From positions 1 to 39,676 of the IMG/VR virus record IMGVR_UViG_3300037245_002970: DNA of 39,676 bases, one strand, 5' to 3'. This DNA comes from a virus. Both the position numbers and the translations under genes were made by a program. Of the stretch, positions 32,438 to 38,268 are shown piece by piece; the first letter of the stretch is position 1, and each line of letters starts with the position of its first letter. Under the pieces are notes generated by a model. The model was not told the DNA's origin and searched no databases. It saw only the letters and a program-made list of their open reading frames with translations.

Positions 32438-33748
32438 TTAAAAACTTTTATAAACAGGTCTTAATGAAAACCAATCTCTCATCATAATGCTATCCCAATC
32501 ATCAGGAGAACGACCAATGATAGCTTTGATTTTATCCTTTGGCACTAATGACATTTTTCCATCTTTCTCAACATCATTTAATTTTACTTGCTCCATCTCT
32601 TCAGATGTTAATTCAATTACTTGATCATCATCGCAAATCTCTCCAACCTTTCCATCTTCAATTCTTTTCGACATTCTTATTGAACATTGATTTTTTAAAT
32701 TGGTGTAATTTACATCTCCATCCTTAGCTTTTGGATCAAATATTGGCTTGCTATTATTTATAAAACCTTTACATCTTAAAACATCAACAACTCCTCCTCC
32801 AACTCCATCTTCATCTGCAATAGTATTTGAATTAGTTATTTTAAAAGCTGCCTGAATACTTCTGGCCTTTTCAACTATTTGAGGTATGCTACTTACTTTC
32901 ATCTCATATCTCTTTACACAAAGCCAACCTCTCCAAACTCTAAAAACTGTTTTATCTTTTCCTTTCCTTGCAACATCTATTGTCAAATAAGTATCATCTC
33001 CTTTCTCAATATGTTTTGCATTCCAATAATTCATGATTGCATCATAAGAAATTAAAGAACTCAAATCATCATCATATTCCCAATCGCCAAACAATAATCT
33101 CCTCCTGCTTGTTTCATCCATTTGATTAAGTGATTCAATATAACTTTCTGGAAGGAATGGATTATCTTTTGGCAATGACTGAACAAAGGCCCTATATTCT
33201 GCTATGTCCTTATTCTTATCAGCTTTATAAAACAATTTATAATTCCAATTCTTAGAAGGGTTACACGTTCCAAATATCTTTGGTATTAAATCATATTCAT
33301 TTAATTTATATCTAATCCTAGATTTTAAAACAGTCCAAGCCTTTAAAACTATTTGTGCTGTCTCATCAACAAAAGCTCCTGTAATTTCCAAAGAACCTAA
33401 ACCATCAAAATTAGGATCAGTTGGTTTTAATTTTAATTCCTTCAATAATATTTGGCTTCCATTACTCCATTGTATTACTCCAGACTGTTGCTTGTATTCC
33501 CATTGGTCACTAATTCCAAGCTCCTTTGATGTTTCAAAGAAAGTATTAAGAGTAGTTTCTTTTAATGCCTTTAGAACCTCTCTAGCCATAACCCATCTTG
33601 TTTCTGGATATGCTTGGCACATCTCAATAAGCCACAAGCATCCAAGCTTTGACTTACCACCACCTGCAGCACCCCCATAAAGTATCTCTGTTGTAACTCT
33701 ATCTTTCAAATAATAAACTGCATTCTCTTGTTTGGGTAGTAGCTTCAT
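32438..33748 (-). CDS. Terminase large subunit
   Basis: About 436 residues from the ATG at 33748 (MKLLPKQENAVYYL); a TTG three codons earlier is a weaker start. Walker A is GGAAGGGKS near residue 25, and VDETAQI near 125 is Walker B. The nuclease half has LTIDVARKGKDKT and ADEDGVGGG, an RNase-H-like pattern, and a late DDWDSI. It packages DNA into the prohead, powered by ATP. A portal gene follows as expected. Confidence 0.92.
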   Translation of the reverse strand: MKLLPKQENAVYYLKDRVTTEILYGGAAGGGKSKLGCLWLIEMCQAYPETRWVMAREVLKALKETTLNTFFETSKELGISDQWEYKQQSGVIQWSNGSQILLKELKLKPTDPNFDGLGSLEITGAFVDETAQIVLKAWTVLKSRIRYKLNEYDLIPKIFGTCNPSKNWNYKLFYKADKNKDIAEYRAFVQSLPKDNPFLPESYIESLNQMDETSRRRLLFGDWEYDDDLSSLISYDAIMNYWNAKHIEKGDDTYLTIDVARKGKDKTVFRVWRGWLCVKRYEMKVSSIPQIVEKARSIQAAFKITNSNTIADEDGVGGGVVDVLRCKGFINNSKPIFDPKAKDGDVNYTNLKNQCSIRMSKRIEDGKVGEICDDDQVIELTSEEMEQVKLNDVEKDGKMSLVPKDKIKAIIGRSPDDWDSIMMRDWFSLRPVYKSF

Positions 33749-33763
33749 AGAATACAAAGTAAG

Positions 33764-34198
33764 TTAATATTTTTTAAACTCTTTAACCTGAACTGTATCT
33801 ATTATATTTTGTGATACTAAATATTGATAAACCATTAGTGTTGAATCTGTAGTCATAACCCCTTTATACTTCTTTTGAATAGGGTTAAAAGCCTCATTAA
33901 AGAAACTGCTATCAATATCGCAACTAGATATCGTTATCATTTGATTTACAGATCCATTGTTCTGGTAATCATTTAAACTGAAATAAATATTATTACCATT
34001 TTGATTTGAGAAGATAATCTCTCTTCTGTGAATCTCGCCTGTTATCTCATCAACTACCCAATCATAACAATTCCAATTTCCTTCAAAACTAAAACTTGTA
34101 CTTGAAACAACCTCACTTAATATTAAGGGTTCTGGTAAATCATTACTTTGTGAACAGCCAATTAGTACTGTAGCTAATATTAAAACTATTTTTTTCAT
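33764..34198 (-). CDS. Phage-encoded lipoprotein
   Basis: A 144-residue protein with a lipoprotein signal: basic start (MKKIVLILATVL), lipobox IGC at residues 13-15, then SQSNDLPEP, acidic residues just after the Cys as in Bacteroidota export signals. The mature part looks like a small beta-rich, lipocalin-like domain (FEGNWNCYDWVVDEITGEI, IYFSLNDYQNN). Its position between terminase genes suggests a late accessory gene; superinfection exclusion or lysis help are possibilities (inference). Confidence 0.75.
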   Translation of the reverse strand: MKKIVLILATVLIGCSQSNDLPEPLILSEVVSSTSFSFEGNWNCYDWVVDEITGEIHRREIIFSNQNGNNIYFSLNDYQNNGSVNQMITISSCDIDSSFFNEAFNPIQKKYKGVMTTDSTLMVYQYLVSQNIIDTVQVKEFKKY

Positions 34199-34260
34199 AT
34201 TTATTTATTTATTGATTATCAATGTTAATTTTTATTAGTGCCTTAATTAATTTTAATCTT

Positions 34261-34755
34261 TTATTCGTTTCTTATATCTTCTGAACCGCAATAATTACAA
34301 GATAAATATTTAACTTGTTTTTCCTCCAACTCTTTAACCCTTTCTTTTAGCTTGGTGTTTTCTTTTTCAAGTTCAACATATCTGATATTTCCTTGAGCAT
34401 TTAACCTTACTGATTTTTCGTAATCCTCCCTCAACTGTTCGTTCTCTTTTTGGAGGGTGTTAATAAAATTAATTATTTCATTTTCATTTTTTAAAAGCCC
34501 ACCGGAAAATTGAAACTCCTTTCGTATTCTTTTTATTATTTCCTCTATTTCCATATCAATATATTTGTTTTTGTGATCTGAATTGCACCTAATTGCAATT
34601 GGTTGATAAATACGCAAAGCCTTTGTTTTAAAAACATAACACTTCTTTAAAGTATCAATCTTCATCTCATCAGATATTTGCTTTGCACTTGGTTGGGGTA
34701 ACTTGACAAACTTTGTTAAACCTGCCATTAAAAAAATAAACATCAATAATTTCAT
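34261..34755 (-). CDS. Signal-anchored coiled-coil protein
   Basis: A 164-residue protein. Residues 1-15 (MKLLMFIFLMAGLTK) are hydrophobic, a signal or membrane anchor. A charged coiled coil spans about residues 65-150, and the end has a CNYCGSED knuckle. The ATG follows the leader TTAAAGAGCA. Together with the lipoprotein it may form an envelope-facing pair; no family recognised. Confidence 0.6.
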   Translation of the reverse strand: MKLLMFIFLMAGLTKFVKLPQPSAKQISDEMKIDTLKKCYVFKTKALRIYQPIAIRCNSDHKNKYIDMEIEEIIKRIRKEFQFSGGLLKNENEIINFINTLQKENEQLREDYEKSVRLNAQGNIRYVELEKENTKLKERVKELEEKQVKYLSCNYCGSEDIRNE

Positions 34756-34768
34756 TGCTCTTTAATTT
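34755..34768 (-). promoter_or_regulatory. Leader motif variant, copy e
   Basis: Read leftward AAATTAAAGAGCAATG, one base different from the main form, ending in the ATG of 34261-34755. Confidence 0.6.
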
Positions 34769-34783
34769 AAAAATTAATATTAT

Positions 34784-34963
34784 TTATAACCACTCAAATT
34801 CTATATCCAAACCATTCAACTCATCCTCTATATCCTCAACCTGCCATTCTTCCAGATTTAATTCAACTTGCGTACTCATTACTAAATCATCAGTAAATCC
34901 CATTTTGCAAATTACCTCCTGTCCTTTCCTCCAATCCCTAATGCTAAATTCTAAAGTTTTCAT
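34784..34963 (-). CDS. Tiny acidic protein (59 aa)
   Basis: A 59-residue protein, MKTLEFSIRDWRKGQEV, ending LDIEFEWL and then TAA. It lies about 20 bp after a terminator hairpin and 15 bp ahead of the next leader motif. Composition fits the genome; function unknown. Confidence 0.55.
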   Translation of the reverse strand: MKTLEFSIRDWRKGQEVICKMGFTDDLVMSTQVELNLEEWQVEDIEDELNGLDIEFEWL

Positions 34964-34979
34964 ATCAATTAATTTTAAA

Positions 34980-35015
34980 ATAAAAAAGGGCTTAACCCTA
35001 GCAGAAGTTAAACCC
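34980..35015 (-). terminator. Terminator / leader attenuator
   Basis: Leftward GGGTTTAAC (35007-35015), a 10-nt loop, GTTAAGCCC (34988-34996), then TTTTTTATTTT. It sits between promoter P5 and the tiny gene, so it stops read-through from the terminase-small transcript or attenuates P5. Confidence 0.75.
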
Positions 35016-35078
35016 TTAATTATGTCTATTAGACAATTTCTTTAATCACTTTTTAACCACTAGGAAAGTAACATGAGA

Positions 35079-35111
35079 CAAATATATATAAATTATTTAA
35101 TAATATTACAA
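35079..35111 (-). promoter_or_regulatory. Promoter P5 candidate
   Basis: -7 box TATATTTG at 35079-35086 with a 21-bp spacer and weaker -33 box TTGT at 35108-35111, in the gap after the 35153-35542 gene. Confidence 0.5.
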
Positions 35112-35152
35112 TTTATTTAAAATACTTATCATTTTACACGCGGTGGAGACAA

Positions 35153-35542
35153 CTATTCCTCTGGCTTCACTCCAGAACCTAAACTGATAACATTAATGTT
35201 TTCTCCATTGGTTGTATGATCAACACTTTCCTTAGCTCTTCCAAAGCAATAATCCCTGTAATCCTGCATTGCTCTTGCTCTAGTCCTAGTATTATTCATC
35301 TCGGAAATTATTATCCTCAAAGCATAGGGCATTGCCTTATCACTTGCAATCTCTTTTAAGCGTTCCTCTGAGGAGTTAAATATTATTTCATACGCTTCTA
35401 CCAGTTCCGACTTTTTAAGCGGTGTAACCCCCTCAGATTTCAATTGAGCGTTAACACTCGCAAATGATTTTGGTGGCCTTCCTTTAGGATTTCCTGATTG
35501 ACCTTTCTTAAATTGATGTTCTTCTATGTCCTTTGCTCCCAT
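35153..35542 (-). CDS. DUF5681-type protein, likely small terminase subunit
   Basis: A 129-residue protein opening with FKKGQSGNPKGRPPKS, the DUF5681 motif of phage DNA-packaging-associated proteins. The C terminus is helical with basic runs (MNNTRTRARAMQDYRDY). Position four genes ahead of the large terminase suggests the small subunit, which recognises the packaging site. Function inferred. Confidence 0.65.
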   Translation of the reverse strand: MGAKDIEEHQFKKGQSGNPKGRPPKSFASVNAQLKSEGVTPLKKSELVEAYEIIFNSSEERLKEIASDKAMPYALRIIISEMNNTRTRARAMQDYRDYCFGRAKESVDHTTNGENINVISLGSGVKPEE

Positions 35543-35567
35543 GCTGTTTGTGTGCTGTTATTTTAAT

Positions 35568-35951
35568 TTATAATCCATGGCTCTCAATCCTTCTCATTGG
35601 CTTTGAATCATTCTTAACTTCTTTTTCAATAACCTCGACTTCCGTAATTGTTAACCTTCCTTTTCCTTTGTTGATTTTAAGGCTTACAACCTCCTCATGT
35701 AATAAAGAGTATGTTTTTCCTCCAAAAGTAATGTACTGGCTATCAACTATTGTTTTGAGTTCTTCCGCCCCTGCATCAACTTCAATTACTTGAGTGTTGA
35801 TCATGAACTTTTGTTTGAGCAGATAAATGGTCATTTTAACCTCATCATGGTGTCGCTCGTTGTATTGCTCCTTTTTCTTTTTCTTATCCTTCTCGAACTT
35901 CTTTTCAGCGTTCTCCAGAAGACTTAATCCAAAATTGGTGTAGTCGCTCAT
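35568..35951 (-). CDS. Charged hypothetical protein (127 aa)
   Basis: A 127-residue protein with a lysine-rich coiled-coil N terminus (residues 10-35) followed by a beta-rich C-terminal part. Its ATG overlaps the upstream stop by 4 bp. No family recognised. Confidence 0.55.
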   Translation of the reverse strand: MSDYTNFGLSLLENAEKKFEKDKKKKKEQYNERHHDEVKMTIYLLKQKFMINTQVIEVDAGAEELKTIVDSQYITFGGKTYSLLHEEVVSLKINKGKGRLTITEVEVIEKEVKNDSKPMRRIESHGL

Positions 35952-36130
35952 CTTGTTTTCTTTTCAATTATTCCTGGAACTATATCCCCTTCTCTGAATT
36001 GCTTATGAGTATGATTCCAAATGTAGACTTTTCCTCCCCATTGGATTCCATCAACTCTGCTTCCTTTTGACTTAATATTGATTTCGGTTAACATTGAACC
36101 GCACTTATCAAATAATTCTACTTTTTCCAT
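35948..36130 (-). CDS. Small beta-rich hypothetical protein (60 aa)
   Basis: A 60-residue protein, MEKVELFDKCGSMLTEI to VPGIIEKKTR, probably a small barrel. It begins about 35 bp after the dioxygenase gene. No function assigned. Confidence 0.5.
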   Translation of the reverse strand: MEKVELFDKCGSMLTEINIKSKGSRVDGIQWGGKVYIWNHTHKQFREGDIVPGIIEKKTR

Positions 36131-36165
36131 TTTTTATATTTAATTATTGTTATAAATTTTAATTT

Positions 36166-36969
36166 TTAATCCAAACCTTTAAAAGCTTTCAAAGGGTAAA
36201 AAATAAGGCTATTCCTGTAACCTCCCTTTTTAGTTTCAATTATTGGGGTTACTCCATGAATGTTTTTCCAAGCAGGATAAACTAATAAAGAATTATTTGC
36301 ACTGTCCATTGTTGCATTATAATCTGGTACATGAAGATTTCCACCCTTAGCATTGAACTTTTTTGTGATTATTACATTAACGCAATTTTTTAGGTTCCCT
36401 GCATCCCTATGAAATGGGGCTGATATGTTATAGTTAGAAATAGAAGATGTAAATAACCTTCCAAACCTATAATGTTCGGGTACTGATTCTTCAATTATAC
36501 TTTTCTGCAATTCAAATTGTTCTGGCATTATTTTTTTAATCAATTCCTCTGATTCTCTACAAGCTAACAACATGGCCTTTATAAATGTTTGAGCACTTTC
36601 CACATTATGAACAGAAGAACGGTTCGCATATTCTCTTCTCATTAATGCCTTTGGAGGTACAGAGCCTATTATACAACTCATTTGTTCAACATCAATTTCA
36701 TTAGCTTCTTTAATGCTTTTTCCCATCTGTAAAGCCCTTAGTTTACCAGCTCTAGCCATTTTAGTTTTAGGTACATTCTTACTTCTGAACTCTTTGTTGG
36801 CAATATCTACGTATTTTTTTAGATTCCCATCAATATTCTTTATGAAAAAACCAATTAAAACTCCATCCTCATAAAAAAGAGAATCTTCCTTAATGTTTGG
36901 CTCTATAAAAGGGCACTCCTTCCCAATTTTAATATTGTGTTCTACTTTTATTAAATCAATTCTCTTCAT
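36166..36969 (-). CDS. TET/JBP-like 2OG-Fe(II) dioxygenase
   Basis: About 267 residues from the ATG of MKRIDLIKVEH (36969), giving a 14-bp overlap with the methyltransferase; an in-frame ATG at 37026 is less likely. The double-stranded beta-helix core shows ISAPFHRDAGN (HxD iron ligands, H187 and D189), GGNLHVP, NIHGVTPI (distal H238) and GGYRNSL (R252, 2OG-binding). This is the pattern of TET/JBP-type oxygenases that hydroxylate thymine or 5-methylcytosine in DNA. The N-terminal region RAGKLRALQMGKSIKEANE is basic. Substrate not shown; a protein hydroxylase is possible. Confidence 0.75.
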   Translation of the reverse strand: MKRIDLIKVEHNIKIGKECPFIEPNIKEDSLFYEDGVLIGFFIKNIDGNLKKYVDIANKEFRSKNVPKTKMARAGKLRALQMGKSIKEANEIDVEQMSCIIGSVPPKALMRREYANRSSVHNVESAQTFIKAMLLACRESEELIKKIMPEQFELQKSIIEESVPEHYRFGRLFTSSISNYNISAPFHRDAGNLKNCVNVIITKKFNAKGGNLHVPDYNATMDSANNSLLVYPAWKNIHGVTPIIETKKGGYRNSLIFYPLKAFKGLD

Positions 36970-37645
36970 AACAAAAAAAATTTGCACAGGCAGGAAACCA
37001 ACTCTTTTGCCAAGTGACGAAATCACTTGAATATGAAGGAGCTTTAACCGTTTTGTAATTATTGTTTAACATTTTAACTAAATTTCTATATCTGTTTAAA
37101 GATTCATCTATATCAAAACTCCATTCAAATACCATTTTCTTAGGAAATATATCCATTGATTCTAATATTGTCATTTCAGCTCCTTCTATATCCATTTTGC
37201 AACAATGTTGACTGTCTGTGAATACTTCTGAAAAATGAATACACTCAACATTGAAAGACTGGTTACCCCAATCTTTATAAAGACTATTTCTCCAAACTTG
37301 ATTATTATTCCCGACGAACATCTTCATTTTTTTGAGATCATTTGAAACTACAGCCTTTTGATGTATCTCAGCTTCAAAATTGTTTGCTTTTAAATTCTTC
37401 TCTATCATCTTGCAATTAAAAGGGTCTGGCTCATATATTTCAACGGTTGCACCTTTTGATAACGCAAGTAATGCGAACGCACCAACATTTCCCCCCAAAT
37501 CAATCCAATGTTCATTCTCTTGGATTTTAAAGTATCTTTTTTCATAAACGTTCCTTACAATAACTTCTTCAAAAGTCTTTTCATCAGAAGTTCCTTTTCT
37601 AGCAAAGAATATAATCCCATTATGTTCAAGTTTTTTTAAAATCAT
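36956..37645 (-). CDS. FkbM-family methyltransferase
   Basis: A 229-residue SAM-dependent methyltransferase. Motif I is WIDLGGNVGAF (47-57), the acidic SAM loop IYEPDP (70-75), and CKMDIEGAEMTILE (149-162) is the FkbM signature. These enzymes usually methylate hydroxyls of sugars or small molecules. The gene overlaps the ParB-like gene upstream by 4 bp and the dioxygenase downstream by 14 bp, so the three are translated together. An O-methylation of a hydroxyl made by the dioxygenase would fit the order (inference). Confidence 0.82.
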   Translation of the reverse strand: MILKKLEHNGIIFFARKGTSDEKTFEEVIVRNVYEKRYFKIQENEHWIDLGGNVGAFALLALSKGATVEIYEPDPFNCKMIEKNLKANNFEAEIHQKAVVSNDLKKMKMFVGNNNQVWRNSLYKDWGNQSFNVECIHFSEVFTDSQHCCKMDIEGAEMTILESMDIFPKKMVFEWSFDIDESLNRYRNLVKMLNNNYKTVKAPSYSSDFVTWQKSWFPACANFFCYEEN

Positions 37646-38268
37646 AACTTCTCTTTTTCTTCTTTTAGTTTTTTAATTAAGAAACCACCAATGTAAAGCT
37701 TCTCATCTCTAAAGAACCTGATTAATTCTGCAGCTGTATTGTAATGGTCATGCTCAAATTCTATTTGAATTGCTTTTTTTACACCTTTGGTCATTGTCGT
37801 TAATTGCTCTTCTAAATCTTCATCATCTAAAATAGAGTAATCAACATCTTCCTCAACAAAAACTTCTAAACCCCAATCATTTAATTCAGAATTATCCCAT
37901 TCACTAGATATTACATCCCAATCATTTTCTCCATTATGATTATTATCCTTAATTGCAATCTCTCTTAAAACTTTTACAGGTGTTGATTCTGGAAGTATTT
38001 TACAAGGTACAGTCTTAAATTTCAACTCTTCCATTGCTCTAAACCTCATGTTCCCAGCAATCACAATGTAATTTTCATTAAATGGGTACACAACAACCTC
38101 TCTAATTTCAGTCATTATCTTACATTCTGAAATAGACTTTTTAAGAGCTTCAAAATTTTCATCCTTAATAAGTCTTGGGTTTTTCGGTAAACCTTCTAAT
38201 TGACCACTATTATTAATAATTTGTATTGGTTTTAGTTGAGCTAACTCAACGCCTTTCTTCTTTGCCAT
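37642..38268 (-). CDS. ParB/Srx-like protein
   Basis: A 208-residue protein with a ParB-type N-terminal domain: PKNPRLIKDENFEALKKSI, and the box AGNMRFRAMEELKFKTVPC (about residues 71-89). Next is NHNGENDWDVISSEW and ELNDWGLEV, a tail typical of phage ParB-like proteins coupled to modification methylases. Such domains bind DNA and may have nucleotide hydrolysis activity. Its neighbours are the methyltransferase and dioxygenase, not a ParA, so partitioning is unlikely. Confidence 0.8.
   Translation of the reverse strand: MAKKKGVELAQLKPIQIINNSGQLEGLPKNPRLIKDENFEALKKSISECKIMTEIREVVVYPFNENYIVIAGNMRFRAMEELKFKTVPCKILPESTPVKVLREIAIKDNNHNGENDWDVISSEWDNSELNDWGLEVFVEEDVDYSILDDEDLEEQLTTMTKGVKKAIQIEFEHDHYNTAAELIRFFRDEKLYIGGFLIKKLKEEKEKL

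Follow-up and report, generated by a model that had tools for sequence, protein, structure and literature searches.

A predicted phage DNA hypermodification cassette combining a ParB-like protein, an FkbM-family methyltransferase, and a TET/JBP dioxygenase

Background

Three overlapping phage genes encode a ParB-like protein, an FkbM-family methyltransferase, and a TET/JBP dioxygenase, and they raise the question of whether the products act together on DNA and, if so, on which base. The genes are found in IMG/VR record IMGVR_UViG_3300037245_002970, and the window analyzed here is the whole of this record, 39,676 bases. The window contains genes for terminase, portal, major head protein, tape measure, NinG, a Rad52-like protein, and a DNA helicase, and on the basis of this gene content it is assigned to a tailed phage. 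Hydroxymethylated phage DNA is known to be decorated with sugars, amines, carbamoyl groups, and amino acids. A first-pass annotation of the window proposed another possibility, in which the dioxygenase makes a hydroxymethyl base and the FkbM enzyme O-methylates it.

Results

The three genes form a compact cassette that adjoins the packaging genes. On the minus strand, each of the three has an open reading frame. The first gene (37642..38268) encodes a ParB_N-domain protein of 208 amino acids, the second (36956..37645) an FkbM-family SAM methyltransferase of 229 amino acids, and the third (36166..36969) a TET/JBP 2-oxoglutarate/Fe(II) dioxygenase of 267 amino acids. The ParB-like and FkbM genes share 4 bp (37642-37645). 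For the dioxygenase, a GTG at 37026 is an alternative but less likely start; the aligned relatives begin where the window ATG lies (36166-36969, MKRIDL...), and this ATG gives a TET/FkbM overlap of 14 bp. The overlaps of 4 bp and 14 bp given in the first-pass annotation are therefore correct if the dioxygenase starts at the ATG of its relatives. The family assignments also hold, as all three proteins exceed the Pfam cut-offs: ParB_N (PF02195) with 29.9 bits against 26.3, Methyltransf_21 (PF05050) with 48.8 bits against 22.7, and Tet_JBP (PF12851) with 42.8 bits against 34.9. The FkbM protein in addition scores 58.7 bits against a cut-off of 37.7 with NCBIfam fkbM_fam (TIGR01444).

Downstream of the cassette is the terminase large subunit gene (32438..33757, minus strand; PF04466, 54.8 bits). 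Between them lies a gene for a DUF5681 protein (35153..35542, minus strand; PF18932, 40.5 bits), which is small-terminase-like by position and is outside the proposed chemistry. The cassette thus adjoins packaging genes in the window, and it is arranged likewise in phages P-HS2 and MED4-117. The comparison of the window (32438-38268) with L001, L002, L003, and L004 shows a ParB/TET cassette directly preceding terminase in the window and in the Prochlorococcus phages, whereas the ParB-like gene is gene 1, upstream of terminase, in two actinophages, CaiB of Gordonia and Tonitrus of Rhodococcus. This proximity may link modification to packaging. As a general rule, terminase adjacency was rejected: TerL was matched in at least 17 of the 67 loci with room for it, a lower bound from a single-sequence search.

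The dioxygenase belongs to the TET/JBP family. The HRD, NIHGVTPI, and GGYRN motifs noticed at first reading are present. In an alignment of 34 sequences the residues H187, D189, N192, H238, G239, V240, T241, P242, Y251, and R252 are invariant, and they include the HxD...H iron triad and the 2-oxoglutarate-binding arginine (H187, D189, H238, and R252). The AlphaFold2 model has a mean pLDDT of 91.3 and matches human TET2 with a Z-score of 19.4 (rmsd 3.5 over 246 residues). Other TET-type structures follow, with Z-scores of 18.5 for NgTET1, 17.0 for CMD1, and 16.8 for CcTet, and matches outside the TET group are lower (FTO 15.1, ALKBH3 14.1, and PHD2 12.9). The sequence profile alone also retrieves TET2 from the PDB, with HRD aligned on HRD and with the HGVTP...GYR region and the C-terminal histidine and arginine aligned as well. 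A prolyl hydroxylase or other protein hydroxylase had been considered, and the comparison came out against it, since TET structures outscore FTO, AlkB homologues, and PHD2. The window dioxygenase is predicted to oxidize a 5-methylpyrimidine in DNA.

Database labels for these proteins look wrong in several places. The names "queuine tRNA-ribosyltransferase" and "DpdA-like", found in PHROG 6059 and GenBank, are not supported for the dioxygenase, because Pfam reports only Tet_JBP at E-values up to 1. The same labels are given to TET/JBP proteins in NC_020857, NC_020847, and many actinophages, and the ParB-like gene of MED4-117 is labeled "DNA methylase", which looks equally wrong.

The methyltransferase belongs to an FkbM subfamily that appears to be restricted to phages. 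The SAM-binding motifs of the family are conserved (DLGGNVGAF, YEPDP, and KMDIEGAE in the window protein), and within the subfamily WRNS and EWSxD motifs are invariant. The AlphaFold2 model (pLDDT 92.8) has a class I methyltransferase fold. Methyltransferases of tRNA and rRNA are at the top of the fold search, with a best Z-score of 13.9, and these are generic class I matches that do not indicate the acceptor. The sequence profile has a weak match to a solved structure named "Methyltransferase FkbM" (2py6). Cellular relatives, sought in 84,980 bacterial and archaeal genomes, have at most 32% identity among the matches listed.

The FkbM subfamily appears tied to TET. Approximately 166 viral loci with this FkbM were collected, consisting of 80 from an IMG/VR profile scan, 79 new ones from two further scans after removal of repeats, and seven others including the window. 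The set was not dereplicated. Similarity to TET-linked FkbM was the criterion for collecting the loci, and they therefore describe this subfamily and not FkbM proteins in general. In every one of the approximately 166 loci a TET gene is found beside FkbM, and the order ParB-FkbM-TET is kept nearly throughout. The exceptions are L126, in which a kinase gene intervenes, and L138 and L315, in which a more distant TET is in front. Of 84 trio loci, 62 have a ParB-like gene that overlaps FkbM by exactly 4 bp. The complete trio, with its gene order unchanged, is also present in the cultured Prochlorococcus phages MED4-117, MED4-184, and P-HS2. In MED4-117 and P-HS2 the overlaps between adjacent cassette genes are 1 and 4 bp, the cassette lies just before the terminase genes, and the identity to the window proteins is 48.5% for TET and 43-44% for FkbM. 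P-HS2 is a siphovirus that is lytic and has been grown on Prochlorococcus MED4 (PMC7852597). The identical gene order thus recurs in other viruses, as does the overlap of the ParB-like and FkbM genes, and the trio is therefore not a product of chance.

L138 and L315 are different from the other loci. The FkbM gene lies behind a distant TET, which scores 67-69 bits with the profile, and the order is reversed (L138:2041-3650 and L315:892-2501). In L138 the residue equivalent to N192 is aspartate, which NgTET1 and CMD1 share, and a pair of ORFs resembling DNA methylases of the DPPY/DAPY type comes next. These two loci possibly represent an independent pairing of FkbM and TET that acts on another base.

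FkbM occupies a slot that is filled by other tailoring enzymes in sister loci. A survey begun from TET rather than from FkbM covered 69 viral contigs. In about half of these, a glycosyltransferase-like gene of one cluster fills the slot between ParB and TET. Two of these genes were scanned against Pfam and matched TAGT, the TET-associated glycosyltransferase family (PF20691); that of L045 scores 45.6 bits, above the cut-off, and that of L037 scores 24.0 bits, below it. A third gives a match of 83 bits to a PHROG of phage glucosyltransferases. Other contigs have in the slot a P-loop kinase alone, or a kinase together with an amino acid:DNA transferase (ADDT, PF18724). FkbM is found in exactly the position that TAGT, kinase, and ADDT use in the sister loci.

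The slot also holds some less familiar genes. A glutamine-amidotransferase-like protein is encoded between ParB and ADDT in three loci (L006:1253-1930, L023:6101-6691, and L033:1530-2204), and the one in L006 is GATase_6, just under the cut-off. It is an unexplained addition to thymidine hypermodification in TET cassettes. The slot of L018 (6579-8008) has two ORFs of 327 and 149 amino acids that match no Pfam family above cut-off; by eye they are glycosyltransferase-like and phosphatase-like, and they are a candidate for another type of tailoring. In L007 (2080-2985) and L008 (7083-7988) the slot protein has 301 amino acids and no clear family, with a resemblance by eye to GT4-type glycosyltransferases.

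Slot genes have been exchanged repeatedly between closely related TET genes. A tree of 128 TET sequences, made by a quick search and with some long branches, shows 25-29 changes of the slot label, and branches with support of at least 95 require no fewer than eight changes involving FkbM. The TET proteins of L009, which has TAGT, and L010, which has FkbM, are 89% identical, and those of L023 (ADDT) and L144 (FkbM) are 80.8% identical. The kinase loci L060 and L066 have TET proteins 97-98% identical to those of the TAGT loci L054 and L063 (98% between L060 and L063), which is a very recent exchange of tailoring genes. The simplest reading of these swaps is a single chemical handle with interchangeable caps. 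O-methylation of the TET product is the best reading of the FkbM function, because the subfamily occurs with TET in all the loci collected and replaces glycosyltransferases and base kinases.

The same observations bear on whether the three genes are merely neighbors. The ParB might be of the partition type, the FkbM enzyme might methylate a host surface or a metabolite, and the dioxygenase might act in repair or on RNA. FkbM-type genes do occur in other phages, such as Pelagibacter phage HTVC112P and Streptomyces phages, although at 25-32% identity. However, the adjacency to TET in approximately 166 loci, the conserved overlaps, and the exchange with TAGT, kinase, and ADDT strongly disfavor unrelated functions, which we regard as very improbable. 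It is instead highly probable that FkbM tailors a DNA base oxidized by TET.

The acceptor of the methyl group would most simply be the hydroxyl made by TET. FkbM enzymes methylate hydroxyls, typically those of sugars or polyketides. A search of 39 FkbM records for two glycosyltransferase families, TAGT and GT2, found TAGT in none and GT2 in one, and ADDT was found in one of the 39. Therefore no other acceptor carried on a base is evident in these records. Methylation of a sugar added elsewhere was rejected on the same TAGT and GT2 counts, within the families searched. A gene of the thymidylate synthase/hydroxymethylase type (PF00303) is absent from 38 of the 39 records, which leaves TET as the sole evident origin of the hydroxyl, and a hydroxymethylase of the thymidylate synthase family was rejected as its source.

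One locus has a more elaborate arrangement. L126 (5819-9977) contains six genes in the order ParB, ADDT, FAD-dependent oxidoreductase, FkbM, P-loop kinase, and TET. Here FkbM coexists with an amino acid transfer pathway, and its acceptor may be a later product rather than the base hydroxyl. In general terms, FkbM could methylate another atom of a TET-dependent product, such as a carboxyl group formed by repeated oxidation (giving a methyl ester) or an amino acid or sugar attached by other enzymes. The combination of FkbM with ADDT, FAD oxidoreductase, and kinase in L126 fits this, as do the usual preference of FkbM enzymes for sugar or polyketide hydroxyls and the ability of TET enzymes to oxidize beyond the hydroxymethyl stage. 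On the other hand, the sister slot enzymes TAGT and kinase require an alcohol as acceptor, and this implies that TET of this clade stops at hydroxymethyl, and the near absence of GT2 and ADDT and the lack of TAGT in the 39 records also argue against it. Methylation of another atom is accordingly judged quite unlikely, and the base hydroxyl is preferred. The O-methylation step of the first-pass annotation is thus retained as the best reading through the TET linkage and slot exchange, and the acceptor itself is inferred.

The ParB-like protein is the most constant partner of TET. It is present in nearly all sister cassettes. The window protein carries GNMRFRA, and a GxxRxxA box is found in 124 of 132 relatives, in which a GNMRxxA or GHGRxxA box is conserved along with a C-terminal region. 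Proteins with ParBc domains also adjoin the enzymes of another phage base modification at many loci, where their role is unassigned (PMC12783734). Recruitment of the enzymes or choice of sequence can be conjectured for the ParB-like protein.

Gene context favors thymine as the substrate. The first-pass annotation named thymine or 5-methylcytosine, and both are kept here, with thymine ahead on account of the sister cassettes and the missing C5-methylase. Thymine is already in DNA, and no extra methylase is needed. Cassettes with kinase and ADDT fall in the same TET clade as those with FkbM, and kinase action followed by amine transfer is known on 5-hydroxymethyldeoxyuridine in phage DNA (PMC6449724). 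No C5-cytosine methylase was found in the window, P-HS2, MED4-117, CaiB, or Tonitrus, nor in 58 of 68 related records searched, many of which are incomplete. The remaining ten records have C5-methylase matches, five of them strong, and these are never inside the cassette. Since the kinase and transferase chemistry encoded in sister cassettes is known on hydroxymethyluracil, and since a C5-methylase is usually absent, thymine is the likelier substrate, and 5-methoxymethyl-dU would be the likeliest product.

Alternatively, TET could oxidize 5-methylcytosine made by the host or by another phage enzyme, and FkbM would then produce 5-methoxymethylcytosine. In TET2, N1387 contacts N4 of 5-methylcytosine and H1904 contacts O2 (PMC11040006). 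The first of these is kept as N192 in the window protein, and the position of the second is L260. The alignment of N192 with a residue that contacts 5-methylcytosine (PMC11040006) fits this alternative. An asparagine pairs with either base, however, and could equally donate to O4 of thymine, so that the pocket residues do not discriminate between the two bases. A published study discusses phages that combine a C5-methylase, TET, and glycosyltransferases (PMC12730594), five of the 68 records have a strong C5-methylase match, and hosts could supply the methylated base. Against this, the C5-methylase is missing from the window, the cultured trio phages, and most records, and is never in the cassette, and TET proteins 81% identical to FkbM-linked ones adjoin kinase and ADDT, whose chemistry is known on hydroxymethyluracil. 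Oxidation of 5-methylcytosine is thus unlikely, and thymine remains the preferred substrate.

Discussion

The trio may be a cassette for post-replicative hypermodification of phage DNA. In the proposed chemistry, the TET/JBP enzyme would act on thymine in phage DNA and hydroxylate its methyl group, giving 5-hydroxymethyluracil, and FkbM would move the methyl group of SAM onto the new hydroxyl to give 5-methoxymethyl-dU. This would be the position where sister phages put a sugar with TAGT, or a phosphate that is later replaced by an amino acid with kinase and ADDT. As a conjecture, the ParB-like protein might bring the enzymes to DNA or set the choice of sequence, and the capped base might block host nucleases. 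The two enzymatic steps taken together, with TET acting on thymine and FkbM on the resulting hydroxyl, have about an even chance of being right. A broader proposal is put forward more tentatively: that TET and FkbM make an undescribed base, 5-methoxymethyl-dU or its cytosine counterpart, that this base is widespread in phages including Prochlorococcus phages, and that the ParB-like protein is a shared recruiter of plug-in tailoring enzymes.

If the proposal is correct, a methyl cap added by FkbM would be a new and chemically simple way of concealing the hydroxyl, both from nucleases and from enzymes that recognize hydroxymethyl bases. Viral metagenomes commonly contain the cassette, and the cultivable phage P-HS2 has it as well. 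The slot between ParB and TET also offers matched tailoring enzymes ready for use, which evolution has already exchanged between nearly identical TET proteins. In a literature search, no paper was found to connect FkbM with TET or with DNA hypermodification, although an earlier mention in a gene neighborhood figure is possible. The remark in the first-pass annotation that no description of the trio was known therefore holds within the literature searched, with the most relevant surveys outside that scope. Provisionally, the cassette belongs to known phage TET hypermodification, with an FkbM tailoring step that is apparently undescribed.

Among the closest known systems are the phage TET/JBP clusters with TAGT (PF20691). 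They share with the window the same ParB and TET clade, with TET proteins up to 89% identical, and the same order, with a tailoring enzyme in between. The window cassette differs in having an FkbM methyltransferase in place of the glycosyltransferase, and its records are usually without C5-methylase. Thymidine hypermodification with a 5hmdU DNA kinase and an amino acid:DNA transferase, as in phages M6, ViI, and phiW-14 (ADDT/aGPT-PPlase), has the handle proposed here, a hydroxymethylpyrimidine in DNA. In the sister loci L006, L023, L033, and L126, ADDT and kinase genes precede a close TET. However, the hydroxymethyl group of M6, ViI, and phiW-14 comes from a hydroxymethylase acting at the nucleotide level, while in the present proposal TET would supply this group and methylation would take the place of phosphorylation. 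Synthesis of base J by kinetoplastid JBP1 and JBP2 and a glucosyltransferase resembles the proposed chemistry in the oxidation of thymine in DNA by TET/JBP enzymes followed by capping of the hydroxyl. In contrast to base J, the proposed cap is methyl rather than glucose, and the dioxygenase is a single-domain protein of 267 amino acids encoded in a phage genome with a ParB-like partner. With the general FkbM family (PF05050, TIGR01444) the window enzyme shares the SAM-binding motifs, the IEGAE signature, and the class I methyltransferase fold, but its subfamily is tied to TET and has no more than 32% identity to cellular relatives among the matches listed. CmoX and CmoY of Synechococcus phage S-B43 also carry out a two-step base modification in a cyanophage, and many of their loci include a ParBc protein (PMC12783734). 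The handle in that system is a carboxymethyl group on cytosine (PMC12783734), whereas the handle proposed here is a hydroxyl made by TET.
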